34,095 nt of DNA from a virus, in the IMG/VR virus record IMGVR_UViG_3300008339_000252, positions 1 to 34,095 of that record; one strand, 5' to 3'. The number at the start of each line of letters is the position of its first letter. The first letter of the stretch is position 1. The notes beneath the pieces were generated by a model. The model worked only from the letters and a program-made list of their open reading frames with translations, was not told where the DNA came from and ran no database searches. Shown in pieces: positions 1,625-27,500 of the stretch. A program made the translations under genes and the position numbers.

Positions 1625-2356
1625 TTAAGACATTTTTAATTGAATTTCATCAAAAAACTTAATCCTAGCGTCTATTGCATTAATAGCAGCTTTTTCTGCT
1701 TCGAACGCCTTTACAGGATCATTACCACAAAAGTATTCTACCATTTGCTCGGCTTTAGGGCCATGATCTTGCCCATCAACTTCGATGTGCCGGTCAAGGT
1801 AATAATAAAATTTAGGTGCCTCAACTGCTGATATATTCAATTGCCTTAGTATTCTTTTAAACATAAGAGGTATTACTGTCTCCCTCCCATAACAAAACGA
1901 AGAAGCGGTACAGTGAGGTCCACGCCGAATGCTCTGAAACGTAGTTTCAATAAATTCCGATGAAGCTTTAGGAATAATATTGAAATCTTTCTTGTCTAAA
2001 AATTCAATAATTTTAGACGCATCGGCTTCAATCTCTAACATAGCTTGCAGATATAAATCAAAATGACTAATGGATCCTTTACCATCCGGCGTCAAATCTG
2101 ACTCTTCACAAAGAACAATTTCATTAATCATTCTTGCAATAGGACTACGCGTTCCTTGCGTCGGAAACCACAGTTCCGTTGATGGGCAAGCGTTATGCTG
2201 CAAAGTCTTAATTAAACTCATAAAGTCCCAAACAGCAAACACATGATGTTCCATAAAGATTCGCAAATCTTCGATTGTCTGTATGCTATTTGTGACTAAT
2301 AAACTATGATTGGCAAGCTTTTGTTGTTTTGCTATAATCCGCGTAGTATCTATCAT
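1625..2356 (-). CDS. DUF3050 protein, haem-oxygenase-like fold, putative oxidase
   Basis: A 243-residue protein with strong DUF3050 hallmarks: FMEHHVFAVWDFMSLIKTLQ (residues 34-53), INEIVLCEESD (77-87), SHFDLY (97-102), CYGRETVIPLMF (155-166) and YYLDRHIEVDGQDHGP (185-200). DUF3050 belongs to the haem-oxygenase/TenA/PqqC-like helical fold. The H190-x3-D194-x3-H198 pattern, with upstream acidic and His residues (E36, H37/H38, E79, E84, E85, E159), resembles the ligand set of haem-oxygenase-like diiron oxidases. That catalytic assignment is inference. The ATG overlaps the stop of the SPASM radical SAM gene by 4 nt, so the two are translationally coupled and likely act on the same pathway. It is the last gene of the cassette. 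Near full length for the family. Confidence 0.85.
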   Translation of the reverse strand: MIDTTRIIAKQQKLANHSLLVTNSIQTIEDLRIFMEHHVFAVWDFMSLIKTLQHNACPSTELWFPTQGTRSPIARMINEIVLCEESDLTPDGKGSISHFDLYLQAMLEIEADASKIIEFLDKKDFNIIPKASSEFIETTFQSIRRGPHCTASSFCYGRETVIPLMFKRILRQLNISAVEAPKFYYYLDRHIEVDGQDHGPKAEQMVEYFCGNDPVKAFEAEKAAINAIDARIKFFDEIQLKMS

Positions 2357-3663
2357 GTTGCAATAATGCCTGTTTCCTTTAATTCTACATCTGATCCAAA
2401 TAACAACTTAAATGCAGCGTTCTGAATAGCGCCATACCATATTTTTTCAACTCTACAATTTTTAAGGAACACCTCTGTAGGAAAATCAATTGGACAAGAG
2501 CTCTTACACAGTCGTCTAACTTGGCAATCGGAACAGTGCGTCTTTTTTCTATCCAAAGCTAAAGATACAATTTTCACGCCTTTTATATTTGAGACATGTC
2601 CGCTGTTGTATTTTTCATGCGTGTGGGGGCATAGCCTGACATTACCCCTTAAATCCATACTTAATATATCTGATGCATCTGCTCCGCAGTTTGTGGTAAT
2701 AGTGACTGGTATTTCGTGTTTGACGGACTGAGCAAATTTGAGTGCCCCTGTATCCCCATCAAAAACATTGGATTGTAAGATCGGTAAAGTTTTAGATCTG
2801 CCTTTTTCTTTTAACTGTAATATCGAGGCATCCATGTAATTCTTCATTACTGTTCTGAAGGCTTCTAAATTGTCTCCTTGGATTACATGGTCGGAGCTAT
2901 TTTTTGAATCCGTTTCATCGTATGTTTTACCAAGTGTATAGCTTATCTTTGAATTTTTTAACCCATTATCTGTGGCTAGTTTATAAAAATAATCATTAAT
3001 TAAAAACATATCAAAATTAGTATGGCTAACTACAGGATTAAAACTATATTGGAATTTTGGGTATAGAGCATCAAGTTGCTTCAACACATCCACTATTTGA
3101 GGACGTTTGAATATATCTTCTCCGCGAAGCGATTCTTGACCAGGCCCATCATGGCTTATTCCCATAGCCACAGTCGATTTCAACTGCTTGAAAAAATCCA
3201 CGTGCTTTTGACGAAGAGCGCTACCGTTTGTGGAAATATACCAAGAAATTGTTTTGCTATCAAAGTGGGTCATAATTTTAACCATATCGTTCCAATAAAG
3301 GAATGGTTCGCCGCCCCACAATTCTATGCGTGTTAATTCTGATATGTCGAGATATTTTTCTACCGATTCCAAGAAGCCCGGCGTCCAGAAATTTTCAGGT
3401 CTTTCTGAAGGATCGCCAATGTCTTTTTGCATACAATACCCACATGAATAATTACATGCATGCCCAAGTAAGAGCCTTAGCCCTTTTGGTTTATTGGTTT
3501 TAGTGACGACTCCATTTTGAGCAGCTTGTTCCGCATACCAGTCTTCAGACTCTACCGGTGAAGCGGATAGAGGCTGTCCTTCTGCATTTACGAGCGCGTT
3601 TCTATCATTGTTGTAATAAAATACTTGACCTGTTTCAATAACTTCAAATTTGGCAAAGCTCAT
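2353..3663 (-). CDS. Radical SAM/SPASM maturase (RiPP-type), adjacent to His-rich small protein
   Basis: A 436-residue protein. The radical SAM cluster motif is C70-x3-C74-x2-C77, followed by IELWGGEPFLYW (GGEP at 117-120). A complete SPASM domain follows: C326 and C345, then C377-x2-C380-x5-C386-x3-C390 and C403, the canonical set for two auxiliary 4Fe-4S clusters. This architecture is that of peptide or protein maturases such as anSME, PqqE, AlbA and QhpD. The first 60 residues precede the core and could be a substrate-binding region, but I cannot identify a RiPP recognition element by eye. The gene lies 15 nt after the 131-residue His-rich gene and overlaps the DUF3050 gene, so these three form a natural sub-module. 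Enzyme class is seen; substrate is inferred. Confidence 0.93.
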   Translation of the reverse strand: MSFAKFEVIETGQVFYYNNDRNALVNAEGQPLSASPVESEDWYAEQAAQNGVVTKTNKPKGLRLLLGHACNYSCGYCMQKDIGDPSERPENFWTPGFLESVEKYLDISELTRIELWGGEPFLYWNDMVKIMTHFDSKTISWYISTNGSALRQKHVDFFKQLKSTVAMGISHDGPGQESLRGEDIFKRPQIVDVLKQLDALYPKFQYSFNPVVSHTNFDMFLINDYFYKLATDNGLKNSKISYTLGKTYDETDSKNSSDHVIQGDNLEAFRTVMKNYMDASILQLKEKGRSKTLPILQSNVFDGDTGALKFAQSVKHEIPVTITTNCGADASDILSMDLRGNVRLCPHTHEKYNSGHVSNIKGVKIVSLALDRKKTHCSDCQVRRLCKSSCPIDFPTEVFLKNCRVEKIWYGAIQNAAFKLLFGSDVELKETGIIAT

Positions 3664-3678
3664 AATATACTCTCATAA

Positions 3679-4074
3679 TTAATAATTATCGTCAATCGGG
3701 TGATAGTGAGATCTTAACGCGTTTGCTGCAGTTACATGTTGATTAATGTAGGTGGCTGTAACAATTGATGCAGGATCTGGAATCCCGGGCGCGGTCCACC
3801 CTGGAATTGGATCAGTATTAACGTTTCGCGCACTGGTACTCCCATTGTTGCCATAATCAAAAATTCTGTCATAATCCACATACTGGTGATAATGCCGATA
3901 GAACGTATATAACAGATTACTGAGGGTGATAAAATCTTGACGCTGTATTGTATTTCCTGCAACGAAACGTGCTCTGAGTTCTTGACGATAAGACAGAGCA
4001 ACGCCAGTGTCCAGATTTTGCCCTGAGTCGTAGTTTAGTGGGAATCCTGCGTTTTGACTGGTTGATAATGGCAT
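3679..4074 (-). CDS. 131-residue protein with two HxH modules; candidate modification substrate
   Basis: I do not recognise a named family. The protein carries two copies of a helix-plus-His-x-His module: residues 43-63, ending H61-Y-H63, and residues 105-125, ending H123-Y-H125 just before the C-terminal PIDDNY. Both align without gaps to residues 25-45 of the 64-residue protein encoded at 7914-8108. Between them is a Gly/Asn/Pro-rich linker. The start is fixed by a perfect AGGAGG (4080-4085) 5 nt before the ATG. It lies 15 nt upstream of a SPASM radical SAM gene. It could be a maturase substrate, or a small virion protein whose HxH motifs bind metal, as in phage fibre and spike tips (T4 gp37, P2 gpV). 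There is no Cys. Confidence 0.75.
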   Translation of the reverse strand: MPLSTSQNAGFPLNYDSGQNLDTGVALSYRQELRARFVAGNTIQRQDFITLSNLLYTFYRHYHQYVDYDRIFDYGNNGSTSARNVNTDPIPGWTAPGIPDPASIVTATYINQHVTAANALRSHYHPIDDNY

Positions 4075-4089: not shown

Positions 4090-5208
4090 CTATTTATTCC
4101 AATGTATAATTGGGATTACTTTTGATTGAGGTTTAACAAGACCGTATTGTGTGTGCTTAAACCCACTCTCTATCAACTTATGGTAATATTTGCAACTTGA
4201 TCGTAGCATAAATTCTGGCACAAAATTAAAGTCTTTGTTAAACTTAAATTTTTGAACTTCATTAAAATAATCTACAAATTTTTGTTCTATAGCAGTGCCG
4301 GGAACAATCTCTTTGGCAAACTTATTATATAATTCTTGTTTACCAGTAAGCATTTCATACATTAACTCCGACGCGTTGAAGTCTTGATCTTTAACAAATG
4401 TAAAGAACGGATCCCAGTTTATATCTGTAGCATCATCGATGCTGTAGAAAAATCTATCGTTGTATAAGTGAATTGCTTCTCTGTATATCTGATATGTTTT
4501 ATTATTATGACTTAGCACATATGTATTCTGATAATCGTACTTACCTTGCTCTAAGTCGTACCTAGCATTAGCATCGTCTCTTAAATCATGCTGAAGACAA
4601 TTATACAATCCCCGATCATTCATCCAACCAACTATCTCTTCTACTTGCGGAGGCGTAGGATCATTTGTCGTACGAATAATTTTTATTTTAGCAATATCAT
4701 ACTTCGAAGCATAATCCTCCAACACTTCGATAATTTGTTTATTCTTATTTGTTTTTACGAGGAAGTGATCACTAAGACTAATATCTGCCATCCCCTTCAA
4801 CGTAACATGATCCATTAATGTTTTACGGTGGGTAAGGATAGCATTATCCGTCATTCCATATTCAAATACACTTCCGTGCGATTTATACCAGTCAAAAATA
4901 TACGGATGATTGAGGCGAAGATATGTTAGATCGTCGTTTGTACGTACGACGTAGAAATGATCAAACACATCGTACCACCTTGCTTCATCTCTTGATGTTA
5001 TTATCGTGGGTATGTTTTGAATATAATTAGAAAACCCTTGTTTAAGCTTATCTTTAATGTAACATATCTGACAACCTGCATGGCATGTATACTTGTATGT
5101 GGGCGTAAAGTACAAGTCAAACGTAAGAGGGCTTAAGGAGTCTTCTCTTAAAAAATACGTTGTGTGATCTTGGTAATGTTCGAAATCCTCCCCTGCATAA
5201 TTACTCAT
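4090..5208 (-). CDS. Divergent radical SAM-like protein without SPASM
   Basis: A 372-residue protein with one well-formed cluster motif, C42-x3-C46-x2-C49 (CHAGCQIC), preceded by a strand-like TFDLYFTP and so consistent with a radical SAM core. It lacks a GGEP motif, and there is no C-terminal CxxC cluster of the SPASM type. A single C-terminal SSCKYYHK cannot hold an auxiliary cluster alone. The ATG lies inside the end of the preceding radical SAM gene (8-nt overlap), so the two are translationally coupled and may form a complex. It may be an enzyme on a rare branch or a partner subunit that keeps only one cluster. The radical SAM call rests on the Cys motif, position and context, so it is less secure than its neighbours. 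Confidence 0.75.
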   Translation of the reverse strand: MSNYAGEDFEHYQDHTTYFLREDSLSPLTFDLYFTPTYKYTCHAGCQICYIKDKLKQGFSNYIQNIPTIITSRDEARWYDVFDHFYVVRTNDDLTYLRLNHPYIFDWYKSHGSVFEYGMTDNAILTHRKTLMDHVTLKGMADISLSDHFLVKTNKNKQIIEVLEDYASKYDIAKIKIIRTTNDPTPPQVEEIVGWMNDRGLYNCLQHDLRDDANARYDLEQGKYDYQNTYVLSHNNKTYQIYREAIHLYNDRFFYSIDDATDINWDPFFTFVKDQDFNASELMYEMLTGKQELYNKFAKEIVPGTAIEQKFVDYFNEVQKFKFNKDFNFVPEFMLRSSCKYYHKLIESGFKHTQYGLVKPQSKVIPIIHWNK

Positions 5209-6265
5209 CTATTCCTACCCAATGAAGTAAAGATGGTTTTCGGTTCAATTTACTCATGTGCTTTACTAATACGTTGATTGTTTGGTAAAATTTTACACAA
5301 TTGCCTTTTGGTTCTTCATCAAACATTTTGTAGAGATATTTAAGGCCGCAGTATTGTCTAGAGATGCATTTGACACAATCAGGGCGAATCAGGGAATCCT
5401 CATCCCCTTGTCTATAAAGCTCAATTCCATTTCTCCATTTGCCTACTCTAAACTCATCACGTTTATACTCAAGAAAATCAAACTCCGGATAGAGGTATCC
5501 ATCCGGCCCAAGGATAACTTTACCGTGATTGTTAAGGTAGTGCTTATCAATTTCCGTATAGTTGCCATCAATGTAGCACACAACGCCATTTACATAAAGC
5601 GTATGCAGCATCTTAGAAAAATCATACATGAACCTGTCTAGATTCATTTCATCTAGAAGTACCTTAAACTTCTGACGGCCACGATAATGTCTTAAGGGAA
5701 TAAGATTAACAACGTTGCAATGTAGAGTCTTACATGCATTAATAACTGCTGTAGACGATTCGATGTCCATTGCTCCAGGACTTGACACTGGTACAACAAA
5801 CTGAAACAGGCAGTTTGTCTTTGTAGCATGCAATACTTTAGCAATAGCTTCTAAATCAACAGGAGCCCTGTTAATATCTTGAAAATTAAAATCGTAACTA
5901 AATGTAATCTGACCCTTGCCTGCCCACTTCTCAAAGAACCATGCGTTATCCGCAATAAGAGAGCCATTGGTAGTCATTGTAAATTTGCAACCTAATTTTT
6001 CCAAATGGGTTGATATTTTATCAAGAATAAAATCCATTTTCTTAGCGTAGATCATTGGCTCGCCACCATGGAAGCAAATGTACTCAATGGGATGACCGCT
6101 CTCTACAATAGCGTCCATGAAAGCCACTATATCTTCCACAGCAGTCGTCTTCATATTTTGAGAGCCAATGTCCTCCCGTATGAATGCTCTATCACAATAC
6201 ACACAATCAAAATTGCAAGTATCCCCTAGATAGATAACTACGTTTTTGACGTTAGTTAAATCCAT
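5201..6265 (-). CDS. Radical SAM protein with short SPASM/twitch-like C-terminus
   Basis: A 354-residue protein. The motif C17-x3-C21-x2-C24 (CNFDCVYC) lies close to the N-terminus, so there is no leader domain. ICFHGGEPMIY follows (GGEP 67-70), then TMTTNGSLI, a usual strand of this fold. Near the C-terminus is C297-x2-C300-x5-C306 and C323, which looks like a shortened SPASM or twitch domain able to bind at least one auxiliary cluster. These traits fit peptide-modifying radical SAM enzymes. The start overlaps the 548-residue enzyme by 14 nt, and its own end overlaps the next radical SAM gene by 8 nt, so three such genes are translated as one unit. The reaction is unknown. Confidence 0.92.
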   Translation of the reverse strand: MDLTNVKNVVIYLGDTCNFDCVYCDRAFIREDIGSQNMKTTAVEDIVAFMDAIVESGHPIEYICFHGGEPMIYAKKMDFILDKISTHLEKLGCKFTMTTNGSLIADNAWFFEKWAGKGQITFSYDFNFQDINRAPVDLEAIAKVLHATKTNCLFQFVVPVSSPGAMDIESSTAVINACKTLHCNVVNLIPLRHYRGRQKFKVLLDEMNLDRFMYDFSKMLHTLYVNGVVCYIDGNYTEIDKHYLNNHGKVILGPDGYLYPEFDFLEYKRDEFRVGKWRNGIELYRQGDEDSLIRPDCVKCISRQYCGLKYLYKMFDEEPKGNCVKFYQTINVLVKHMSKLNRKPSLLHWVGIDE

Positions 6266-7898
6266 AATTCTTTTGATTAAATATTATTGTAGATATTAAT
6301 TGCAAATAGAATATTCTTATTTCTGGCGTATCTCCATCAACAATCTTAGTTGGAATTCCTTGACGTCCAGCAATTGCCTTGTATAGATCTACAGCTTCCA
6401 TTTCTCCTGCGTCGTTTGTCTCGCCACTAATGTGCGTCCATATATCTAACATAATTTGCCTATAAGGCTTGTAGTGGGACTTCGTGCATTTACCCATCTC
6501 CGGCCTTTCACCAGTCCGCAGATATTCCAACATATAATCTGCCCCAGTAGCCATAGCCTTCTCTTCGCCATCTTGTTGTAGCTGAGCAAGTCTAATTTCA
6601 AACATTCTGTGAAATTGTTTCTTAGCAACATCAGCTTGTAAATCAAGATATAGCTTAACAATTTCTTGACACATGTCGTCGGGTCTAAACATACGAGGGC
6701 CTGTATCAATATTGCCGGCTGGACATTGGTAACACATGTTCTGATAATTACACGTCTTACACTTCTCCTCTATTTGAAACATTTCGTTGTACATCGCCTG
6801 AAATTTGGTATAGCGATCGACGTATACTTTATCATCTAGTATGTTTCCAAGGATTGTTTCGTGAGCAGCTGCTTTTTGATTCGTGAAGAAGTAGCAGCCC
6901 GAGAAGTCGCCAGACGCGTCAATTGCTATCATATCTGAGCCAACCATACAATTGTTATCTTGTTTTTCGCCAACTCCTTCACTAAACAATACAGTCAAAT
7001 CCCTATACTTGTCTAAGCAATCGAACAACGCCTTACGCATTGTGTTCCAATTCTTTTCTTCCCATTTAATATAGCCGCGTCGAGAGTCAAGCACTAACGG
7101 ATGCACAATTAATCTTTTAACACCTTTCGCATACAAGGCTTCTATAAAGTTATGTAATGTGTCGGCCGTCTCTTCTGATAGAGTGCAGCGGATAGTTAGT
7201 CTAGCCCCGACGTTGGGAATTTTTGTAATCTTACTTACGTTAGAAAGAATTGTATTTAACTGATCTTGTGTAATGTCCCTATAATCTTTCTCAAGGTCCA
7301 TTGTATCTAAGCTAATCAACATGTACGTATATCTTTTGCTAAAATACATGTTAATAAAATCATCGTCTAACAGCAATCCGTTAGTGCAAATAGAAACTCC
7401 CGTACCTGTATACCCAACCCAATTTGAATTTAATTCTTTGTCGTGCGTGTTAATAAAATCTCTAATTAACGGCTTATGGATAAGAGGTTCGCCTCCAAAA
7501 AATTGAAGGATTTTTAAAGGACGATCGTTAATATTTTTGAGCCAGTCGTATGCTTTTTTTACAGACTCTACTGTAAATCTACCATAATCTTTATTGTGTT
7601 GCTCATAGCAATAATTGCAGCTAAGGTTGCAAGCGTTTGTAAGAAGAAGATTCATGTGAGCTAAACTACCAAACAAGTGTTTAGCTTCACTAAAGCGCTT
7701 TACTTGTTCTTCTTCTGATGGGATAATTGAGATTAGCTTGTTTTCTTTTTCCAAGCCATTGGGAGTAGTAATTGTACTAACTGTAGTTTTTAGCGTTCCG
7801 TCAGGTAATTGAATTACAGATGCAGCATGTCCCGCAATACGATCTTTTTGAGCATCATTGAGCGTTCTGTATATGTTTACTACATTCACTTGGTTCAT
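6252..7898 (-). CDS. Radical SAM/SPASM maturase next to the Cys-rich small protein
   Basis: A 548-residue protein. Radical SAM motif C90-x3-C94-x2-C97 (CNLSCNYC), then FFGGEPLI (GGEP 135-138) and SICTNGLLL. The SPASM region has C317, C335, C380-x2-C383-x5-C389-x2-C392 and C410. The domain is complete but for a CX2C rather than CX3C in the last pair. About 90 residues precede the core and about 130 follow SPASM; both extensions are unrecognised and could bind substrate. The architecture matches RiPP and protein maturases that form thioether, C-C or formylglycine products. The gene starts 15 nt after the 64-residue Cys/His gene. AGGGAAG overlapping that gene's stop is a usable though distant ribosome-binding site. 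Enzyme class is certain; substrate pairing is inference. Confidence 0.94.
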   Translation of the reverse strand: MNQVNVVNIYRTLNDAQKDRIAGHAASVIQLPDGTLKTTVSTITTPNGLEKENKLISIIPSEEEQVKRFSEAKHLFGSLAHMNLLLTNACNLSCNYCYEQHNKDYGRFTVESVKKAYDWLKNINDRPLKILQFFGGEPLIHKPLIRDFINTHDKELNSNWVGYTGTGVSICTNGLLLDDDFINMYFSKRYTYMLISLDTMDLEKDYRDITQDQLNTILSNVSKITKIPNVGARLTIRCTLSEETADTLHNFIEALYAKGVKRLIVHPLVLDSRRGYIKWEEKNWNTMRKALFDCLDKYRDLTVLFSEGVGEKQDNNCMVGSDMIAIDASGDFSGCYFFTNQKAAAHETILGNILDDKVYVDRYTKFQAMYNEMFQIEEKCKTCNYQNMCYQCPAGNIDTGPRMFRPDDMCQEIVKLYLDLQADVAKKQFHRMFEIRLAQLQQDGEEKAMATGADYMLEYLRTGERPEMGKCTKSHYKPYRQIMLDIWTHISGETNDAGEMEAVDLYKAIAGRQGIPTKIVDGDTPEIRIFYLQLISTIIFNQKNYGFN

Positions 7899-7913: not shown

Positions 7914-8108
7914 CTATAGCGAGCCGCGTTGGCATTGGCATTGGCAATTGCTGTTGTAGTCGTCAGTAAACGTATGGCCATGCGATACTAAAGTATCTAC
8001 AATATCCAACATTTGAGTGAAATGAGCTGCTGTAATTGTTTCGCCGGCCGCCTTATCCGCTGCGGCCCCAACGCCTGAGGTAAACTGACTGGTATTATCT
8101 GCTACCAT
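7914..8108 (-). CDS. 64-residue HxH/CQCQCQ protein; candidate RiPP-like precursor
   Basis: An Ala/Thr/Gly-rich N-terminal half leads into a predicted helix (residues 25-42), then H43-G-H45-T and FTDDY, and finally C55-Q-C57-Q-C59-Q before RGSL and the stop. A small protein with a Cys-rich tail placed 15 nt upstream of a SPASM radical SAM gene, with two more after it, is the classic layout of a peptide precursor and its maturases. Residues 25-45 align without gaps with both modules of the 131-residue protein. An AGGAG (8115-8119) sits 6 nt before the ATG and within the end of the previous gene. Alternatives are a metal-binding tip protein of the virion or an Fe-S carrier. No family is recognised with certainty; the coding call is strong because of the ribosome-binding site and tight packing. 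Confidence 0.8.
   Translation of the reverse strand: MVADNTSQFTSGVGAAADKAAGETITAAHFTQMLDIVDTLVSHGHTFTDDYNSNCQCQCQRGSL
7929..7946. repeat. Three tandem hexamers encoding Cys-Gln
   Basis: The plus strand reads ttggca three times in a row; on the coding strand each TGCCAA encodes one Cys-Gln of the C55-Q60 tail. A fourth related unit, CAACGC, breaks the pattern. In-frame hexamer repeats can gain or lose units by slippage, changing the number of Cys residues without a frameshift. Confidence 0.85.
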
Positions 8109-8109
8109 T

Positions 8110-9072
8110 TTATACTCCTAAAAGAAGAGATTCTATTGTTATTTTTCTATCATCTGATATTATATATGGCTTCGTGAGGTCGTAACAATCGAACGTAACC
8201 TTGATATATCCCATACCAGGCTGCTTTTTAACTAGGATGGTATTACCCTTTATTTCCGTATCCCAAGATGACTTTACTGTAAAATAGTTATTAAGTAAAC
8301 AACTATTCGTTTTATGATATATTAACGAATTATGACCAATCTCTATCTTGAGATAGTCTTTTTCAACAACCAATGTATTTGCCACATATTCGCAATCAAC
8401 CCTAGGTTCAAAAGCAAACCTTACTATATTACCGGTTTGGTCGTGAGTTGATGAAATGGTGCGCTCATTTGTATTCATGCTAACGCCGGCATGGCCAGAA
8501 ATAATGTTATGGTTGCACATTAACACATATCCATTTGTTTTTGCCAACCGAAAAGCTATAAAAAAAGTAAGAACGTTGATTTGTTCGTTTTGCCCTATAT
8601 CGTCTATGCCATCAAACACTTTAAGCTGGTTGTCCTTCCCCCGCACAATATACTGGGAGTCTTTCAACAGCGTCGTTTCGCTTGTCGGGTCCTGTTTATT
8701 TAATATAAGGGCTAATGATACCCATTCATACTCATCTAACGCGCGCTCCATTAAATCAAGGTCAAGAATCCTTGTGTTGTCAGGTGTGCGCATTTGAGCA
8801 GGTAAAAAAGATCTAGTAATTAATACGTCATTTCCGTCTTGCAAAAAAACAAGATTAGTAATATCTTTATCAAACTGACGTAGTATGGGGCCCTGCTTAT
8901 ACTCTCCGGCAGCTTTGCGTAGGGATGGAAGAAGAAGTCGAGTGTTAGCAGGCACTACTAATGTAGATCCGTTTTGATCTACAAATGTACGGTTTGTATT
9001 ATTAATGGCATTAGATACCCCATCCCACTGGGAAGGTCTATTTGTTGCTCGCATAAAAAGCCAATGTTTCAT
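8110..9072 (-). CDS. Unrecognised 320-residue protein, possibly lectin-like beta-sandwich
   Basis: I do not recognise this family. The sequence alternates hydrophobic strands with polar turns. A central stretch, from EWVSLALILNKQD through a GKDNQLKVFDG strand to FFIAFRLAKTNGYVLMCNHN and ISGHAGVSMN, has the spacing of concanavalin/LamG-type jelly-roll domains, which often bind glycans. That is a weak visual inference. There is no signal peptide or membrane segment. The ATG overlaps the stop of the 189-residue gene by 4 nt, and the gene is followed after one base by the 64-residue small protein, whose ribosome-binding site lies inside this gene's last codons. It could be a virion protein carried in the cassette or a partner of the modification enzymes. 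Confidence 0.7.
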   Translation of the reverse strand: MKHWLFMRATNRPSQWDGVSNAINNTNRTFVDQNGSTLVVPANTRLLLPSLRKAAGEYKQGPILRQFDKDITNLVFLQDGNDVLITRSFLPAQMRTPDNTRILDLDLMERALDEYEWVSLALILNKQDPTSETTLLKDSQYIVRGKDNQLKVFDGIDDIGQNEQINVLTFFIAFRLAKTNGYVLMCNHNIISGHAGVSMNTNERTISSTHDQTGNIVRFAFEPRVDCEYVANTLVVEKDYLKIEIGHNSLIYHKTNSCLLNNYFTVKSSWDTEIKGNTILVKKQPGMGYIKVTFDCYDLTKPYIISDDRKITIESLLLGV

Positions 9073-9638
9073 AATTGCTGTATATACTCCAAAACTTCTT
9101 GTTCTACACTTCCATCAAAAAAAACATCATATATGTGCTTATTATTTTTCATCCACTTATTGTGAGCATCGCAGATTGTATGACCCTGCATAGCTCGTAT
9201 TCCCTCATGCTCCTCCATATGGTCTACTTCATATTCTGTCTCAGAGACAGTCCATCCAACAAAGATATCTACATTCGAGGGTTTTGTTGTGTTATGAGGA
9301 AAGGTAATAACAAGTTTAGAATCCCCGCCCTTAATTTCAGCAAATGTTTTAGCATACACGTCATCAAATAAGTGACTAAAATGAACCATGGTTCTTTCAT
9401 TTTCTGCAGTAGCATCGACGGCCTCACTATACTGACCTTGTTTTACTAAAGCACTAACTTCTTTTCCATATAGCCCAGGATTGCTTATAACATGATTAAC
9501 CATATATTCATATACATTCTCCGTGCCCAACCGGTTATACTGCTGCTCAATCATTCTTAAGTTAGTGGGGGTGTTTGTTTGCTGCTTTATTTTGTAGGCG
9601 GATTGAGATTCAATTGGATAATTTAATAATATAATCAT
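9069..9638 (-). CDS. Unrecognised 189-residue protein
   Basis: No family is recognised. I place the start at the ATG at 9638 (MIILLNYPIESQSAYKIK), 5 nt after the stop of the P-loop gene. A longer reading from a TTG at 9692 would overlap that gene by 49 nt and is less likely. The middle is helical and charged. A VITFPHN strand and an EVDHMEEHEGIRAMQGHTIC stretch, rich in His, Glu and one Cys, could bind metal. The C-terminus (DVFFDGSVEQEVLEYIQQL) is acidic. The stop overlaps the ATG of the next gene (ATGA). Its fixed place between the kinase-like and 320-residue genes suggests a shared pathway, but no function can be assigned. Confidence 0.7.
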   Translation of the reverse strand: MIILLNYPIESQSAYKIKQQTNTPTNLRMIEQQYNRLGTENVYEYMVNHVISNPGLYGKEVSALVKQGQYSEAVDATAENERTMVHFSHLFDDVYAKTFAEIKGGDSKLVITFPHNTTKPSNVDIFVGWTVSETEYEVDHMEEHEGIRAMQGHTICDAHNKWMKNNKHIYDVFFDGSVEQEVLEYIQQL

Positions 9639-9643
9639 TTTTA

Positions 9644-10351
9644 TTATCTTGACATTAACACTTCTACAACACTTTCTATTGTATTTTTGCAATTTAATTT
9701 GAATGTATCTAGATTGCTGTTGTTGTTAATATTAGCAGCAACCTCTACAATGCGCGCTTTATCAAACATGGTATCGTTATACTTCATGGTAGTTATAGCA
9801 TCTTCTATACTGCATTTTGGCGTCATTCCATCAACATAATTATTTACCCACCAAGATGTTTCATATGTCTTTGGCCGGCTGATTGTAATCATAGCATCAA
9901 ACATATCATTGTATTTAAATTTAGTTGATAAAGGACATTGCACAAATACAACATTATTACTTTTTAAAAAAAATGAATATGTCGACATAGTCTTTATATC
10001 CTCAGATATAAAATTCATGTGTACATCAAACATTACGTTTTTTATAGTCTCATATGTAGTATAATTTTGTGACATATATACAACCAATTTACTGTATCTG
10101 CTGTCAAAATTAAGCTTATTCCATGTTAAAATTTCTGCTTGATGTTCTGGAGGCAACAATGTTATTTCCGGTATTGGAAGAAACGTGTCCTCCATTATTC
10201 CCTCGCGGTCATAATTAAATATGGTATATCCTAGCTGCCGGACTACCGTATCAAACTCTGTTTTTCCGCTGGCCGCCATTCCGACTACCCCAATAACGGT
10301 AGCTGATCTGCGCAATGCCTGGATTCGTAAGTTGTAGTCGTAGTTACTCAT
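9644..10351 (-). CDS. P-loop NTPase, small-molecule-kinase-like
   Basis: A 235-residue protein with a Walker A motif G24-M-A-A-S-G-K-T31 after a VIGVVG strand. This is the GxxxxGKT loop seen in adenylate, deoxynucleotide, shikimate and dephospho-CoA kinases. A later strand, VVFVQCPL (residues about 132-139), fits the central sheet. The lid and acceptor site cannot be assigned by eye. An N-terminal RIQALRR helix precedes the loop. The ATG overlaps the end of the cobalamin radical SAM gene by 8 nt. It might phosphorylate a cassette product or a nucleotide for phage DNA synthesis; its position inside the cassette favours the former. The NTPase call is firm; the substrate is unknown. Confidence 0.8.
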   Translation of the reverse strand: MSNYDYNLRIQALRRSATVIGVVGMAASGKTEFDTVVRQLGYTIFNYDREGIMEDTFLPIPEITLLPPEHQAEILTWNKLNFDSRYSKLVVYMSQNYTTYETIKNVMFDVHMNFISEDIKTMSTYSFFLKSNNVVFVQCPLSTKFKYNDMFDAMITISRPKTYETSWWVNNYVDGMTPKCSIEDAITTMKYNDTMFDKARIVEVAANINNNSNLDTFKLNCKNTIESVVEVLMSR

Positions 10352-12386
10352 ATATAACTTTAAGGTCCTGAAAGTTTTTTGGTTTTACACTATTTGAGCA
10401 AAGGGACAAAAAGTGATTGCGTATTCGTGTATTTAGGTCGACGTCTTTATCCCATTCCGCAAGATCTTGCGGCACGTATGTAGTCTTTTTTTCTTGAATT
10501 ATATTATTTTTCATATATGTTGACCAATCGTATTTTGTAGTAAACTTATATGCTCCGGGCGTATAGCTGATAGTCTTTAGCGAAGATGCAACATACACAA
10601 TTAAATCATCCCGTATAGCATCTTCCCCAAATTGTTCTGCACACCATTGCTGTAGAGCGAAGTAAAACGTACTAATGTTTAAATATACAATCATGTTAAA
10701 CAAAGGACCAGGAAGACTTCTTACTTGAAAAGGAAAGTTTTCAGGTAAATCGTAGTATTCAAAATCGACAACTTCATCTTGTTGTAGCTTTTTTAGGCCC
10801 TGAGTTTTCATAGTCTGCAAAAGTTGATTTTGTACGACGGTCATCTTATTGTTACCATACAAGAAGGTTTCCCAGAACTTTCTATAAAAAGTACTATGAT
10901 TGATACCGCTAGAGGCAAGATATTTTGTAATCGGTTGTAGTATTTGTCCTACTTCTGTTTGTAAAATAATGTGATCAAGAAGAAACATATTAAGCCATTC
11001 TTCTCTTGTATATGAGCTAGTTTCAATTACAATTTCAGTGGGCTCCATCCATTCAGGATCGATTACTAAATGGCGGATACCAACAGGCTGCTCATCCAAT
11101 TTCTTTTTAATAATGACAGAGCCTCCATCTACTGTGCTCCTCATACCAAAGCTAGTTTTAAGACTTTTAATGCTGAACCGTTTACGGTATTCCGGTTTGG
11201 ATGCTGGGGTTGTTGGTAGAAGGTGCCATATGTATCGACGGCCAAACGTATCTAACGTACAGGAATAATCCAAAGCTTCATAGTAGCTATCCAGCGTTGC
11301 GCCAGGCAGACCAAGAATCATCTCTAAACGTATCTTGCCGCCAAACTTATCTCTAATCTTTATATAACTTTCTAATTGAATTTTCCAATCTTCATCTGTT
11401 CTGTCAATATTTTTTAGCACTTCTCTATTTAAATCTTGAACAGGAACTTTGTAGTCAGATAACATCCCGTGCTCTGCTGTTAACGATTCAATAAGATATA
11501 CGTTTTGTTTATTTACCTTTGACGGACCAAAGAAGTACATTACGCTAGGAACATTTGCATTTCTTTTCCATTCACAAATACGTTTAATTATATCAACATC
11601 GCGATCGATTATTCCAAAGTTGGCATCCGTAAATGAAAAAAAGAATGGCTGAACATGTTCCATTATAAAGTTGATATCTTTCATAACCATATCGGTTGGT
11701 TTGAAAGTGACTTTGGAATTAATTCCTCCCCCCCACTCACAGTATGTGCAGCCAAACGGACATCCTCGAGATGTTTCATAAGCAACATACAACTTTTTAT
11801 CTTCTATTTTAGCTTTTTGAATTCGTCTGCTAAGATAATGTATATTACGTTCGTAAATATTAGATGGCCATTTAAAGTCTCGTTTGTAGAAGCTAGCAAA
11901 CGATTCCTTCCACATTCCCTTGTCGGGGTATATGCAAAAAGGAACTTCTGATAGATTGGGAGTAGGCTGTTCTAATTGATAAAGGTACTCAGTGATAAAA
12001 ATTTCACCATACCCATCCTCTTTACATACTGCATCGATAAAGTAATTATCTTTAAAGTAATTAATATTTTCTTTGTATGTAATATGAGGACCGCCAACAA
12101 CAATCTTACAATTGGGAAGTTGCTTCTTAACTTGCTCTGCTACATGTAGCGAAAGTCCTACGTTCCACACGTATAGAGAGAACCCAACAACGTTAGGTTT
12201 GCGGGTTACTATTTCAGTTACAAGTTCGTCAACATGGAAAGCAAAAGACTCAGTGATTGGGTCTAACCATTCCCACTGAGTCTTGCTTTTATTGTTTTCT
12301 TCGAAATAAGATTTGAATGATAGCCACGCATAATCTATTCCAAGAACCTCTGCGGCCATGGAATAATTCACAAATTGTATTTTCAT
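10344..12386 (-). CDS. Cobalamin-binding-domain radical SAM protein
   Basis: A 680-residue protein with a Rossmann-like B12-binding domain at about residues 1-145 (NVVGFSLYVWN near 65-75, KIVVGGPHIT near 94-103, KEDGYGEIFI near 122-131) and no DxHxxG base-off motif. The radical SAM motif follows as RGCPFGCTYC, C209-x3-C213-x2-C216, and then EWGGG. LRLEMILGLPGATLDSYYEALD-type residues (about 355-375, matching the GLPGxT motif common to B12 radical SAM proteins) support the core. The C-terminal ~230 residues are unrecognised. Such enzymes commonly methylate unactivated carbon or phosphorus or rearrange rings. It is the first gene of the cassette, starting 1 nt after the fibre gene with no promoter, so it relies on read-through. 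Class is secure; reaction unknown. Confidence 0.92.
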   Translation of the reverse strand: MKIQFVNYSMAAEVLGIDYAWLSFKSYFEENNKSKTQWEWLDPITESFAFHVDELVTEIVTRKPNVVGFSLYVWNVGLSLHVAEQVKKQLPNCKIVVGGPHITYKENINYFKDNYFIDAVCKEDGYGEIFITEYLYQLEQPTPNLSEVPFCIYPDKGMWKESFASFYKRDFKWPSNIYERNIHYLSRRIQKAKIEDKKLYVAYETSRGCPFGCTYCEWGGGINSKVTFKPTDMVMKDINFIMEHVQPFFFSFTDANFGIIDRDVDIIKRICEWKRNANVPSVMYFFGPSKVNKQNVYLIESLTAEHGMLSDYKVPVQDLNREVLKNIDRTDEDWKIQLESYIKIRDKFGGKIRLEMILGLPGATLDSYYEALDYSCTLDTFGRRYIWHLLPTTPASKPEYRKRFSIKSLKTSFGMRSTVDGGSVIIKKKLDEQPVGIRHLVIDPEWMEPTEIVIETSSYTREEWLNMFLLDHIILQTEVGQILQPITKYLASSGINHSTFYRKFWETFLYGNNKMTVVQNQLLQTMKTQGLKKLQQDEVVDFEYYDLPENFPFQVRSLPGPLFNMIVYLNISTFYFALQQWCAEQFGEDAIRDDLIVYVASSLKTISYTPGAYKFTTKYDWSTYMKNNIIQEKKTTYVPQDLAEWDKDVDLNTRIRNHFLSLCSNSVKPKNFQDLKVIYE

Positions 12387-12387
12387 A

Positions 12388-13851
12388 TCATAGGATTACT
12401 GCTTCAACAATCCCTTCACTATACTCATTATGGTCGGTCAAGGCAACAGCAAATACGTGGTCATATCGTACTTGAGCTGTGCCGGGAGCTGCAGGAGCAT
12501 GCGCTGGTCCTAAAGAATCTCCTTTTTTTACAATTCCGTAAACGCGGACAGGAACACGGCCTTTAAGAGCAACATAGGTTCCACCTTCCAAGTCCTTGTT
12601 CATCATAAATGCTGGATTTTCTGATATAACCCCAATTGGTCTTGTTCTATCACTACCAGTAGATGCTGTGACTTCTTTTTCACCACCAACACTTATTACG
12701 GTGCCAATTGGATATTCAGCGTCGGCCAAATACTTTTCAGCCAAGTCGGCGTACCGAGCAGCTGTCGCTGTGCCAGTCATAACATTAGCAGAGAAGTTGC
12801 CAGAAGCATCACGCGCAACAATTGAGTTGCCTGTGTTTGTTTCCGTGGCAGAACGGAAAGTGCCTCCATATAATAAGAAGTTGGCATTTTGCGCAACTCC
12901 ATTCAATGTAGCAGTAACGACGTTTGCACTAAAGCTGCCGGAGGCATCCCGAGCCACTACCGTACTTGCGGTAGCAGCATCTGTTGCATTTACACTAAGC
13001 GATCTGTCTACGGATAGAGCGCCGCCTCCAACTAAATAAGCTCCAGCACTAATACTACGAGAGCAGGTATTAGCATTACCACTTACACTACCAACAATAG
13101 TTGCTGTAAATGTAGCTGCACCAGTAACTGCCATTGTGTTAGAGAATGTTGCAGCTCCTGTTACGCCTACGGTGTTTGAGAAAGTAGCAACGCCAGTAAC
13201 TGCCATTGTGTTAGAGAATGTTGCAGCTCCTGTTACGCCCACGGTGTTTGATAAAGTAGCAGCGCCAGTTGTACCTAAAGTACCACCCAATGTTGTACTG
13301 CCGCCTACATAGAAGCTGCTTGATACGTTTGCTGTGCCAGTAACTGTCAAAGAAGCGTCCGGAACAGCATTGTTAATACCAACCCGGTTGTTAACAGCAT
13401 CAACAAACATTGTACTTGAGTCAATGTTCGTATTGGTTGTACCAGTTACAGAAAACACGTTTGCAGCAACTGTGCCAGCATTAATAGTCGTAGCGTTAAT
13501 GGTTGTTGTGGTAAACGTACCTGAAACGTTTGCATCTCCGTTAACAAAAAATGCTACTGTGGCGGAAGCTGCGTTTATAGAGAGACGATCATTAACGGCA
13601 TCGATTACCAGCGTATCTGTGTCAAACGTCACATTGCCTGTGCTAAACGAAACAATATTACTGAACGTTGCATTACCTGTAACATTTATAGTGTTAGCAA
13701 ACGTGGCTGCACCAGTTACTGTAAGAGTATTAGAAAATGCAGCAGTGTTTGTTACGGTTAAGTTTTGTTGAACGGCAGCGTTACCTGCCACTGTAGCGTT
13801 CTCAGTAACAAAAAGGCCTTTGCGAGCTCGTAGGTCTTGTATAACCGCCAT
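12388..13851 (-). CDS. Repetitive tail-fibre protein with conserved C-terminal domain
   Basis: A 487-residue protein. Residues 15-270 are built from a roughly 12-residue beta repeat (consensus VTGAATFSNT), including an almost exact 72-bp DNA repeat. FVDAVNNRVGIN near 150 is a motif shared with the fibre gene at the left edge. The last ~120 residues form a compact non-repetitive domain: ADLAEKYLADAEYPIGTVIS, then VALKGRVPVRVYG, KKGDSLG and EGIVEAVIL. I recall similar domains at the ends of fibre proteins in marine T4-like phages; the part after PIGTVIS resembles a beta-barrel head, and a chaperone-like role is possible but not shown. A GGA-type ribosome-binding site (AAGGAAAAAC) precedes the ATG. 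It is the last structural gene before the radical SAM cassette. Confidence 0.85.
   Translation of the reverse strand: MAVIQDLRARKGLFVTENATVAGNAAVQQNLTVTNTAAFSNTLTVTGAATFANTINVTGNATFSNIVSFSTGNVTFDTDTLVIDAVNDRLSINAASATVAFFVNGDANVSGTFTTTTINATTINAGTVAANVFSVTGTTNTNIDSSTMFVDAVNNRVGINNAVPDASLTVTGTANVSSSFYVGGSTTLGGTLGTTGAATLSNTVGVTGAATFSNTMAVTGVATFSNTVGVTGAATFSNTMAVTGAATFTATIVGSVSGNANTCSRSISAGAYLVGGGALSVDRSLSVNATDAATASTVVARDASGSFSANVVTATLNGVAQNANFLLYGGTFRSATETNTGNSIVARDASGNFSANVMTGTATAARYADLAEKYLADAEYPIGTVISVGGEKEVTASTGSDRTRPIGVISENPAFMMNKDLEGGTYVALKGRVPVRVYGIVKKGDSLGPAHAPAAPGTAQVRYDHVFAVALTDHNEYSEGIVEAVIL
13121..13251. repeat. 72-bp direct repeat in fibre gene
   Basis: A 59-bp block at 13121-13179 recurs at 13193-13251, offset 72 bp, with a single base difference (t/c at 13167 against 13239). 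It encodes two 12-residue fibre repeats (a 24-residue unit). High identity at the DNA level points to recent duplication or ongoing recombination. Confidence 0.85.
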
Positions 13852-22796: not shown

Positions 22797-24557
22797 TTAG
22801 AACTTCATAATAATCTTAATAACTTCTGTTTGGTTATTAGATCTGGAAATTGAGTCTGTGTTTTCTATATATAGAACTTCTCCAGAACCTATTACAAGAT
22901 CGGGAGGAAGTTTGGATGTAATATTTGCTGATGCAGAGCTTGTGTTACCGATTAAATCAATAGTAGGATTAAACGTACCACGCTCGTCAGTTAAAAATAT
23001 ATAGTTGCTGTCAATAGAATGGAAAACAGCGTTTGTAGTAGATAAGTCTGTTTGGTACACGGGTTCGTCTGCTTGAAATGTTCCTGTTACAGTGCTATAA
23101 GTATATTTGGCTCGTTGATCAAACGTATTAAAGTTCTTGGTGATATTATTTATCTGATAACTAGAAACGTTTGCTGTGGCATTGGAAGTTGCCCCAGTCA
23201 CAATTTGACCAGTAGTAAACGTACCTGTTACGTTGGATAATCTTAAAGTAGATCCAGAAAAATATGTGACAACTCCGGAAGCGTTTGTGTTGGCCTGACT
23301 CACTATTTCTTCATCAACATATGCTCCAATAACTGAAGATAAAGCAAATTCAACGTTAGCGAATAAAGGATCTTTTAAAATTCCAATTGTTCTAAAATCA
23401 TTAGTTGATGGAATTGTATTAGCTTCAGTGTTAGCAAACGATACACTAAATCCTAGATACTTACCTCCAAGCTCATATTCTGGGTCAGCTCCATGACCAC
23501 CCTTTGGTCCAATAATTACACTAAGACTCGCAGCATTTGAAACTCCTCCCGTATTACCTACAACGGTGGCTGTAGCAAAAGAGTAATTCTGGCCACGCTC
23601 AATAATTTCTACCCGATAAATGGAATTACCAGAAGATGTGTTGACAAGAGCTCGAGCTTTGGCGTTACTGCCATCTCCAAGAATATTAATGGATGGAGTT
23701 ATTTCGTAGCTTGAAGTTGTATCAGGAGCTACTGTAAATGCTGTATCAATAGTAGCTACTTTATCTGTTCCAATAACAGCATAATCTACAATCTTACGTA
23801 TTTGACCTAACCCAGTCCCAGTACTAATGTACATAAAACTATCATTGTAGAAATCATTATTTGCACTTGCTCCGCTTGCAAGACCATACTTGGTCGTGTC
23901 TCCCCCAATACGAAGATTTGTTGCCTCAAATGTATTAGCAAACGAAGAATTATAATTTGATCCTCCGCTAGAAATTGTTATAACGTCAATAGCTCCGCTA
24001 ACAGCATTGGCTGTTACATTAGCATTGGGAATTACAGGAATAAAATCTGCTGTTGAAAATTTATCAAAATCATTTTTAGAAATACTATACATGTATTTCC
24101 ACACATATCCATCACTTGTACTATAATATTCATCATCAGCTGCAGTATCAGCAAATTCCGGCCGTTGAGTAGATGGAGCTCCTCCATTATTATCTAAAAC
24201 TTTAAAAACATGATATTGGGCTGCGGCATCGGTCAATACATAAAATGCTGTATTAGATAAATCTACATTACTATCATATTTGGTATATACTGTGTTGCTA
24301 ATCCAATCATATCTACTAATCATTATTTTAGCATCATCTGCTGACACTCGTTTTCCAAAAATCATATTTCGGAAAGAGTCTACATCTATTTCTTGTATGC
24401 TATTTATTGGCGAAGGAACAATAGCGTCTCCATTAGCATAAGAAGTATGTCTACCCACAAAAACATAATAGGCATTGTTAGCTGCTTCGGATATAGATTC
24501 TCGCAGTTGTTTTGCGTTATTTAATCTAAAATAATCGGTTATAAGTTGTTTGGCCAT
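22797..24557 (-). CDS. 8: Baseplate wedge protein gp8
   Basis: A 586-residue protein. The N-terminal 200 residues match the gp8 pattern of T4-like phages: LITDYFRLNNAKQLRESISE, NAYYVFVGRHTSY, a YDWISNTVYTKYDSN segment, TAFYVLTDAAAQYHVFKVLD, and DGYVWKYMYSIS near residues 170-180. Gp8 forms part of the baseplate wedge with gp6, gp7 and gp10. At 586 residues it is longer than T4 gp8 (334 residues); the extra C-terminal half carries beta modules (TFTTGQIVTGATSNATANV) shared with other proteins here. Its place directly after gp7 and before the large structural protein fits the T4 order. Confidence 0.85.
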   Translation of the reverse strand: MAKQLITDYFRLNNAKQLRESISEAANNAYYVFVGRHTSYANGDAIVPSPINSIQEIDVDSFRNMIFGKRVSADDAKIMISRYDWISNTVYTKYDSNVDLSNTAFYVLTDAAAQYHVFKVLDNNGGAPSTQRPEFADTAADDEYYSTSDGYVWKYMYSISKNDFDKFSTADFIPVIPNANVTANAVSGAIDVITISSGGSNYNSSFANTFEATNLRIGGDTTKYGLASGASANNDFYNDSFMYISTGTGLGQIRKIVDYAVIGTDKVATIDTAFTVAPDTTSSYEITPSINILGDGSNAKARALVNTSSGNSIYRVEIIERGQNYSFATATVVGNTGGVSNAASLSVIIGPKGGHGADPEYELGGKYLGFSVSFANTEANTIPSTNDFRTIGILKDPLFANVEFALSSVIGAYVDEEIVSQANTNASGVVTYFSGSTLRLSNVTGTFTTGQIVTGATSNATANVSSYQINNITKNFNTFDQRAKYTYSTVTGTFQADEPVYQTDLSTTNAVFHSIDSNYIFLTDERGTFNPTIDLIGNTSSASANITSKLPPDLVIGSGEVLYIENTDSISRSNNQTEVIKIIMKF

Positions 24558-24558
24558 A

Positions 24559-27500
24559 TTAGGTATCTAGTGTAATACTAATGTAAGAAACGTTTGCTAC
24601 TGCCCCTGAGTTTGCTCCTGTTACTAAAGAAGAGGAAACAAAATTAGAGAATGTATTTGTTACACGTAATGTATTTATGGAGCTTGTTGCAACGTATGTA
24701 TTGGTAGCATTTGTTACAGAAGCTGTATTAGCATATGCATTGGAGGTTACGCCATATACTATAGTATTTGTATTCCAACTACCATCAACGAGTCGTATTT
24801 GCACTTGAGTGCTGTTAGCTACGAATACCGTACCATTAGCAGTATGAATGCCTCCCATTACATTTGCTTGATATACAACTTCTCCTACAGCAAATGAGCC
24901 AGTTACCGTATTTCCTTGCTGTACGTCGTTTATTGTCAGGGTTCTACCAATAATAGCCTCAAACGTAGCCGAAGTGTCAATTGTACCTTCTATTAATTTT
25001 GTATATACTGTACTATGACTAGCATTAGAAGATATAGCAACTACGTTAGCACTACTTGTATTTGTGCTAAAATTAGGAGTCGATATTTGCGTATATTGTT
25101 CAATGTATGGTTGATTATTTGCAATAATTATAACCCCAGAAGCGTTTTGAAATATACCATTGGCCGATCCTTGATTAACTTTTTCTCCAACTACAAATGA
25201 TCCATTACCACTATTTACATTTAAATCTATGACTCTACTTGCAGTCTCTATAATGTTGCTGCCTTCAAAACTTGGAGCTGAATCAACAATAACTTTGCCG
25301 AAAAATTCTGTACCAGCTGTATGAACAACTGCCTTTAATATATCCGCATACTTACTAAGGGGAATTCTTGATTGAACTTCATAGCTATGATCTTGATAAT
25401 AGGATCCATCATGTATTTTATCTACACTATTAAGAAACCCACGCTCCGTTTCAAAATAACCTTCACTTATTCCTTGATTTTCCACTACTGTTCTGGCTGT
25501 TACAACAAATGCATTATTAGCTTTAGCCATGCTTACATTTTCATCGTCTACATATCCAAATCCTGAATCTAATACTTGTACTCTTGATACTGCTGTATTA
25601 GCAATTTGAACGTTTGCAGATATATCAGCATTCTCTCCTAACGCGTTGGTAGTTATATCTTCCGCTGCATCAACTATACTAGCAGTAGCTCCTGAAGACC
25701 TACCTAAAATTGTATATCCAGCATAAAACTCATTATTTAAATTTAATTTTTTTACTTTTATTATACTTGTGTTACTAGTTTTTATAGAACCAGTAGTTAT
25801 TATTACAAGAGTTGTATTGTTGGCTTGAGTTACTGTTGCTGTTGCATTAGATGTTAGTGTATTGATTCCATAGGTATTAACAAAAGTGCCGGTAGTATTG
25901 CTAACTTTAATTGTACCTGCACCTGCAACAAGATTTGTTTGATATACAAATCCCGATGCTGTATTAGATGTTCCGTTACTTTGCCAAATATACTCTCCTA
26001 TTTCAGGAGCACTTGTGGGGGACCCATTTGCTGCGGTCCCTGAAAAAGAAGCGACGGTAAGTTGTTGACCGGTAGAATTGCTCGACATTTCTACTGTCTC
26101 GCCGTTAACAAACAACCCAGTCAATGCAGTAACTTTAAGAGTAACATCTCGTTTTCCTAAAGCAGCAACTTCAGGTTCTATTACCAACACATAAGGATCA
26201 TCGTTATAGGACTCTCCTGGATTAATAGCAGTTAATACAGATATTTCTCCAATATTTTTAGTACTTTGGCGTAAAAGATTTTGAAGAGTTGTATTAATAT
26301 CTCCTGCGGGGTATTTTACAAACCCATAACCATTAGCTGCAACATTTGAGTTACTCCCATCAAGAAGTACACTCATAAAGGCAACGTTGCCGGAATTATT
26401 AGCTCGTAATAAGTCTGGATATAAAGCTACTGTCTCATCATTCGTAATACCTCCAACACTAAATGTAGCTCCTGTACCAGTGCTAATGGAAATAATAGTA
26501 GCATATGTGTTAGAATTTAATCCATAAATGTAATTGCCTGTATATGATACAAAAGTATTTGTAATATTGTATATTCCCAAAGAAGTGTTAGAAACAAACA
26601 TTACATTACCAGTTGCTGTGGAATTTACAAAATTAGCTATTACAGCTGTAGCAGTGTTACCTTGAAGACTGAAAGTAGAGTCTACGTTCATGCTTCCTGT
26701 CAAAGGAAGTAACGTTAATGTTCCTGCACTTGTATTTGTAATTGCGTTAGATAAAATTAAAGCATTAGCAGAAACAGCTCCATTACCGACATGATAATTC
26801 TCTACAATAGCTCCATTAGCCCACAGTGCGGAATTAGCAGTAGAAGTGTATTCAAGTGTAGCTAGAGGTTGTTGTATTGTTTCAAAACGCTCAAATCCTG
26901 TAATAGAGGTATTAGAATTCGTTACGCTGCTAATACTTAAATTGCGAGAAGATATTACTACTTGAGCATTTGTAGAATATCCAAACCCGCCGTCAATAAT
27001 TCTAAAATTTACACGACCTGTTTCTGTTGTTATTTCTGTGACCAAAGCTTTGCCTTGTCGGCCACTTCCATTAGTTATTGTTAAAAGATCCCCCTTACTA
27101 AAGTTTTGACCTCCGTTGGTTACTATAAGAGAAGTAAGAGAACCAATCATCTGGGGAGCATTTTCTATAACAGGATTGGATCTAATTGTAATCCGTTCTG
27201 TAAACAAAAAATTACCAGTGACAGCGCTTAGAAAAAATACATCTATAAATTTACCAGCAACGCGTTTTGTTACAATCCGCTCAACATAAGCAACAGCTCC
27301 GGATGTTGTGCCTAATATCACTTGTCCTAGAAAACGTAAATTATCTCTCTTAGGGGTAACTTCAATATATTGAGGAATTGTCCATTTGCTATCAGATGGC
27401 TTAAATACATCTTCGCCCGGATAATATACAGTAGAATTTACATTGTAGAGAAGTCTTAATAAAAGTTGTACTCCTCGCTCTGTACCTTTTGTGCGATATA

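Follow-up and report, generated by a model that had tools for sequence, protein, structure and literature searches.

An alternating-cysteine ribbon on a small T4-like phage protein as the probable target of linked radical SAM enzymes

The window, that is, the whole stretch of DNA analysed here, is a 34,095-base IMG/VR virus record of a T4-like myovirus. Amid its tail-fibre and baseplate genes, including one for a protein with weak tail-fibre matches (12388-13851) and those for baseplate wedge subunits (22797-27780), lies a gene for a 64-residue protein (MVADNTSQFTSGVGAAADKAAGETITAAHFTQMLDIVDTLVSHGHTFTDDYNSNCQCQCQRGSL; 7914..8108); this gene and all further genes and motifs of the window given with coordinates below are on the minus strand. 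It begins 1 nt past a gene for a fast-evolving 320-residue protein (8110..9072), possibly a tail protein. The AGGAG ribosome-binding site noted in the initial annotation (8115..8119) stands 6 nt upstream of its ATG and, as also stated there, exactly 15 nt separate the gene from a downstream gene for a 548-residue SPASM enzyme. The T4-type late promoter TATAAATA occurs only once in the window, less often than expected by chance, and that site does not precede the gene for the 64-residue protein, a point against the virion location proposed below. The residues of interest were also as described: a helix, predicted by AlphaFold2 (mean pLDDT 71.9) and by homology to a 131-residue neighbour to span residues 27-42 (7983..8030), is followed by H43-G-H45 (7974..7982), the acidic motif D49-D50-Y51 (7956..7964) and the alternating cysteines C55-Q-C57-Q-C59 (7932..7946). 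The reported CQCQCQ tail proved to be three alternating cysteines followed by QRGSL, and thus lies near the C-terminus rather than at its end. The tail was modelled with low confidence, and a structure search with the model, which is of moderate confidence only, returned no meaningful match.

Four enzyme-like genes, here called rA to rD, follow. The SPASM gene (rA, 6252..7898) had been said to precede two more radical SAM genes; this holds for the 354-residue rB (5201..6265), which matches the Pfam Radical_SAM family and bears a C-terminal CX2CX5C...C auxiliary-cluster motif, whereas the cryptic 372-residue rC (4090..5208; phrog_36229) is radical-SAM-like only. Beyond rC lie the gene for the 131-residue protein (3679..4074) and that for a fourth, 436-residue enzyme with SPASM-type cysteines, rD (2353..3663), the most widespread of the set. 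The scores of rA, rB and rD against PF04055 (60.3, 42.6 and 36.9 bits; gathering score 29.5), together with a CX3CX2C motif in 42/42 rA, 39/40 rB and 37/37 rD sequences, place these three in the radical SAM superfamily on sequence criteria. No relevant Pfam match, to PF04055 or otherwise, was obtained for rC in the window or for 32 homologues, and its profile found no relative in the PDB; it is termed radical-SAM-like because CX3CX2C is nevertheless present in 39 of 39 homologues. Upstream of the 320-residue gene, a 680-residue B12-binding radical SAM enzyme (10344..12386) is nearest to the NCBIfam model KedN5.

The relationships of rA point towards thioether-forming peptide maturases. Its ten conserved cysteines would serve the SAM cluster and the SPASM domain, and the invariance of C317, C335, C380, C383, C389, C392 and C410, with a PF13186 score of 22.5 bits (cut-off 21.5), assigns it by sequence to the SPASM subfamily. 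The best NCBIfam model was that of the ranthipeptide maturase PapB (NF047865), matched by all 18 rA members tested; next came the maturases of nif11 peptides and CXXX-repeat peptides, QhpD and the SCIFF maturase. The scores against three of these models fell below the curated cut-offs: 112 bits against 340 for PapB, 74 against 453 for QhpD (matched by 17/18 members) and 69 against 425 for the SCIFF maturase TIGR03974. Since rA scores so far under the PapB cut-off, its product may differ from that of PapB. In the PDB, the best profile match was CteB (5wgg, 83.9 bits), and the rA model (pLDDT 83) was likewise closest to CteB (5why, Z 24.8 over 326 residues), closely followed by anSME (23.0) and ChlB (22.4). 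Most of what this comparison matched was the radical SAM core, the C-terminal helical part yielding nothing specific, and the modelled fold by itself would fit more than one chemistry. As for an RRE domain, rA gave no PqqD-like Pfam match, and structural matches mostly began around residue 70. Separately, the rA of an Ewingella contig (L242 12057-14144) is extended at its N-terminus by a segment that includes the Cys/Gly stretch CGSCGSSADNGGGCG and resembles a fused substrate or accessory part.

The nearest relative of the 64-residue protein, at loci L001/L002, is also 64 residues long, is 73% identical and lies in an identical gene order; a more distant member, at L003, ends in CDCNCNCTRGTWG and has the order peptide-rA-rB-rC-rD. 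A DNA pattern for H.H...D.Y...C.C.C, searched across viral contigs, returned 68 stretches, of which about 50 encode true small proteins; HHHWRRDFY..., HEHFAND... and a few others were discarded as chance matches. Many contigs are fragmentary, and some represent one virus sampled repeatedly. Among 46 distinct viral family sequences H43, H45, D49, C55 and G62 are invariant, D50 is kept in 41 and Y51 in 45. The cysteines, always at every second residue, number three (n=7), four (n=4), five (n=32) or six (n=3); the first and second interleaved positions are N/Q/D/E in 46/46 and the third is N/Q/D/A. This invariance, and the comparison with the L001/L002 gene over codons 25-64 (dN 0.135, dS saturated), indicate that the gene is not a chance reading frame. 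In one homologue, an intein-like insertion (L140 9549-10169, equivalent to L125 9796-10428 on the minus strand; Pfam support weak, 13.8 bits) sits inside the run, opening with CFAGDT after ..CQCNCA and closing with IITKN before CNCTCCTRG... Inteins prefer conserved functional sites, and for that reason the insertion counts toward the run being functional. In cultured phages, tblastn with the 64-residue protein gave only chance-like matches with E above 1, one of which (H2) is antisense to an annotated gene, and searches with another family member and with the 131- and 372-residue proteins found no match. A single weak plasmid match, inside a kinase gene, was rejected.

Because the pattern itself demanded the HxH, the D.Y and three alternating cysteines, it cannot by itself prove these features essential, but a scan with the enzyme alone can test this. 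A profile of rA recovered 56 viral loci, mostly the same contigs as the motif-only scan. The peptide was present at 53 of them, on the same strand in 50, at a median gap of 11 nt (maximum 3.9 kb); at the three others (L098, L119 and L123) the rA gene lies near a contig end. Conversely, the peptide occurred without rA at L019, on a contig of 39.9 kb, at L051, on one of 20.7 kb, and at L041, where the contig is truncated; the first two, though lacking rA, retain rD. Homologues free of any radical SAM gene, which according to the initial annotation would count against it if common, were found only on truncated contigs. The rest of the cluster is similarly constant across the 56 loci: rB at 51, rC at 47, rD at 47 and the 131-residue family at 53, with the 320-residue neighbour recognised at 35 and a conserved 243-residue neighbour (1625..2356; phrog_34539) at 29. 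The initial annotation had also asked whether cysteine number co-varies with the enzymes. On the rA tree it changes five times, against a mean of 8.6 after shuffling, with none of 1000 shuffles as low, and the three-cysteine clade of the window forms one fully supported branch. Linked genes of a cluster are inherited together, so both the co-occurrence and this tracking partly reflect common descent. In addition, the B12-binding enzyme is encoded on the strand of the peptide at six of six three-cysteine rA loci and at 3/47 others, and may add C-methylation.

Upstream of its ribbon, the 64-residue protein resembles the 131-residue protein (phrog_31780), which has two HxH elements and is its kin minus the cysteine run. 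The single sequence matched phrog_31780 at E 0.012, and the two families aligned profile to profile with a probability of 96.4 (E 1.1e-9), the homology covering the second half of the 131-residue protein; on this sequence evidence, the small protein carries a helix-HxH-D element of the phrog_31780 type. The near-constant 131-residue protein could be its partner or scaffold. The helix-HxH-DDY part is conserved about equally with the cysteine tail in the 46 members and looks like a structural domain that the mature protein keeps. The proposal that everything before the tail is a leader was therefore not borne out: this part is conserved like the tail and is homologous to a neighbouring protein, and the cluster showed no recognisable gene for a protease or transporter.

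Cysteine runs recur on unrelated proteins beside relatives of rD. A search with rD gave 206 confirmed stretches, of which 80 were kept; rD is more widely distributed than rA and also occurs without the other three enzymes. At such loci a frequent neighbour is a poly-Gly protein of 120-153 residues with an N-terminal cysteine pair or run (CGACACFAAGGGGGGG, CACACDCTITTSYGGGGGGGG, CVCACTYAGGGGGGGG and CQCQCQCQCTYGGGGGGGGG), several carrying just CGAC. At L170, the one case tested, the product of the upstream gene gave a match to PF05268, the model for GP38 adhesins. Apparently split GP38-like poly-Gly adhesins were observed at L168 8050-9048, L170 9380-11852, L193 3905-5416 and L206 6990-7962, where the first half ends ...NNGTIGGGGGGGGG, the second opens with the cysteine pair or run, and the distance to an rD-type gene is no more than a few kb. 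Moreover, the cultured Achromobacter phages JWF and 2-1 encode a radical SAM protein 27% identical to rD two genes past a tail-fibre protein (L221 3676-5127 and L222 3664-5106) in which NCNCDCNCNCS or NCNCDCNCS directly precedes a Hint domain; that the run stops exactly there suggests that self-cleavage exposes it as a C-terminus. Near rD relatives in bacterial genomes, Rhodobacteraceae proteins end in FNCNCNCRC or FNCNCACRC, and twin Bradyrhizobium proteins of 77 and 72 residues, adjoining a tail-fibre gene, end in NCACDCNCACGK-like runs. The whole cluster is present in Bdellovibrio and Ewingella contigs, the Ewingella peptide (122 residues) having an extra HxH element fused to its cysteine tail. 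In a survey of loci selected by rD, which overlap in part and total 1.45 Mb, runs of at least four alternating cysteines in reading frames of 40 or more residues were restricted to these rD-neighbour and cysteine-run proteins, L149 excepted. There (9182-11388), tandem repeat proteins of about 275 residues, with a cysteine-rich stretch of the DCSCCCSCNMNC type, are encoded close to an rD cluster.

Taken together, the two-way co-occurrence, the tracking of enzyme clades by cysteine number, the kinship of rA with thioether-forming enzymes and the reappearance of the run, next to a related enzyme, in proteins of no kinship to this one suggest, through genetic linkage, that the cysteine run is very probably the substrate of the enzymes. 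To this extent the initial annotation, which had proposed the cysteine tail as their target, is upheld. We consider it about 70% probable that the 64-residue protein is a small tail or baseplate part whose ribbon is modified by rA to rD. The protein would consist of a helix-HxH structural element and a short C-terminal ribbon with a cysteine at every second residue, which rA, rB, rC and rD would modify post-translationally. The modification would most likely install thioether staples, in which a cysteine sulfur is bonded to a carbon of a nearby Asp, Glu, Asn or Gln or of the conserved DDY, whose residues are possible acceptors. PapB accepts Cys-Xn-Asp with n = 0-6 (PMC9413430), which makes such short cysteine-acceptor spacings chemically plausible. 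The product would be a rigid, reduction-proof tip kept within the mature protein, with a putative role in attachment or fibre assembly. The run would thus behave as a transferable tag, and the rD branch appears to act on it when fused to other tail-fibre or adhesin proteins. The odds appear evenly balanced for the broader proposal of a widespread and hitherto undescribed phage system, whose SPASM enzymes would recognise the alternating-cysteine ribbon as a portable tag and thioether-staple it on tail-fibre and adhesin proteins of many unrelated kinds, so that receptor-binding parts of the virion would be modified by radical SAM chemistry.

Alternatively, the HxH and the alternating cysteines might bind a metal ion or an Fe-S cluster that rigidifies the tail tip, the radical SAM enzymes acting elsewhere, for example on the 131-residue protein or the tail fibres. 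Phage fibre tips are known, such as that of T4 gp37, in which iron is bound by HxH motifs. The HxH of the family is invariant (46/46), and cysteine runs are able to bind metals; the two together would also be well suited to coordinating a metal. The 131-residue neighbour, at 53/56 rA loci, has the HxH without the run. However, a metal tip does not readily account for the tracking of enzyme clades by cysteine number or for the runs near rD relatives on proteins without an HxH, and to our knowledge Fe-S clusters are not usually ligated by a C-x-C-x-C-x-C ribbon whose length varies; we regard this explanation as unlikely. Inter-chain cross-linking, a sub-form of the stapling reading with a different bonding partner, seems similarly doubtful. 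Here the run would be the donor tying the small protein covalently to another fibre subunit or, at rD-only loci, rejoining split GP38 adhesin halves from cysteine to poly-Gly end. The cysteine run possibly joins such halves, as the first ends ...TNNGTIGGGGGGGGG and matches PF05268 GP38 while the second opens with the run; on the other hand, the run alone contains both cysteines and N/Q/D/E acceptors, enough for intra-chain bonds.

Considerably less probable is a classical RiPP, in which an N-terminal leader is cleaved off and the modified cysteine core freed as a bioactive peptide. Such a pathway would fit a short protein encoded next to a SPASM enzyme with kin among the ranthipeptide maturases. 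Nevertheless, the tested cluster proteins had no match to peptidase or transporter families, although the host could supply such functions, and what would be the leader recurs as an element of a neighbouring protein and shows roughly the same conservation as the tail; it is on the lack of recognised processing genes and this shared structural element that the RiPP was set aside. The tail-gene setting, and the related runs carried by tail fibres of full size and by parts of adhesins, also argue against it, and from its genes the system looks like modification of a tail-fibre component, presumably located in the virion, and not a secreted RiPP. That peptide and enzymes are merely co-located in a variable host-recognition region, as the radical SAM cassettes noted in the pelagimyophage host recognition cluster (PMC7029224) might imply, is largely contradicted by near-total two-way co-occurrence over very diverged clusters, those of Ewingella and Bdellovibrio included, and is highly improbable.

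Stapling of the cysteine ribbon, if right, would account for the radical SAM cassettes in the host-recognition regions of T4-like phages from the sea and would mean that chemistry contributes a further layer to host recognition by phages or to the stability of their tips; it would also provide sets of several enzymes that staple peptides and need just a simple tag, portable between substrates. In the open-access literature searched, we found no report of a phage tail protein or receptor-binding protein being modified by a radical SAM enzyme; the nearest statement was that on the pelagimyophage cassettes (PMC7029224). The present comparison suggests that phages chemically staple portions of their attachment proteins, and since the two cultured Achromobacter phages hold a related enzyme-tail pair, the idea is directly testable.

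Several known systems share parts of this arrangement. QhpD places thioether staples in the gamma subunit of quinohemoprotein amine dehydrogenase, which stays within a larger complex; the concept of a stapled small protein retained in a bigger assembly is common to both, whereas substrate, organism type and role differ, as does the QhpD score of rA from its cut-off. In PapB/PapA, as here, a SPASM enzyme adjoins a small ribosomal peptide containing Cys and acidic residues. In contrast to PapA, the present substrate is a protein of phage structural type with cysteine at every second residue and no visible leader/core logic, and three more radical SAM-type proteins accompany an rA that is far under the PapB family cut-off. 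CteB, the best PDB match of rA in both sequence and structure, also makes thioethers from cysteine, but rA is only about 20% identical to it, matched no RRE domain and has a substrate unrelated to SCIFF. The phrog_31780 proteins share the helix-HxH-D element; the 64-residue family has a single copy and adds the cysteine ribbon. At rD-only loci the cysteine-run protein accompanies a half adhesin resembling GP38 and is rich in poly-Gly itself, although the adhesin there apparently comprises two genes, the second starting with the run, with a radical SAM gene close by. Finally, the pelagimyophage host recognition cluster (PMC7029224) likewise places radical SAM cassettes within the tail-fibre region of T4-like marine phages; the available part of that account names no substrate, and a cysteine-run partner for such enzymes is described here.
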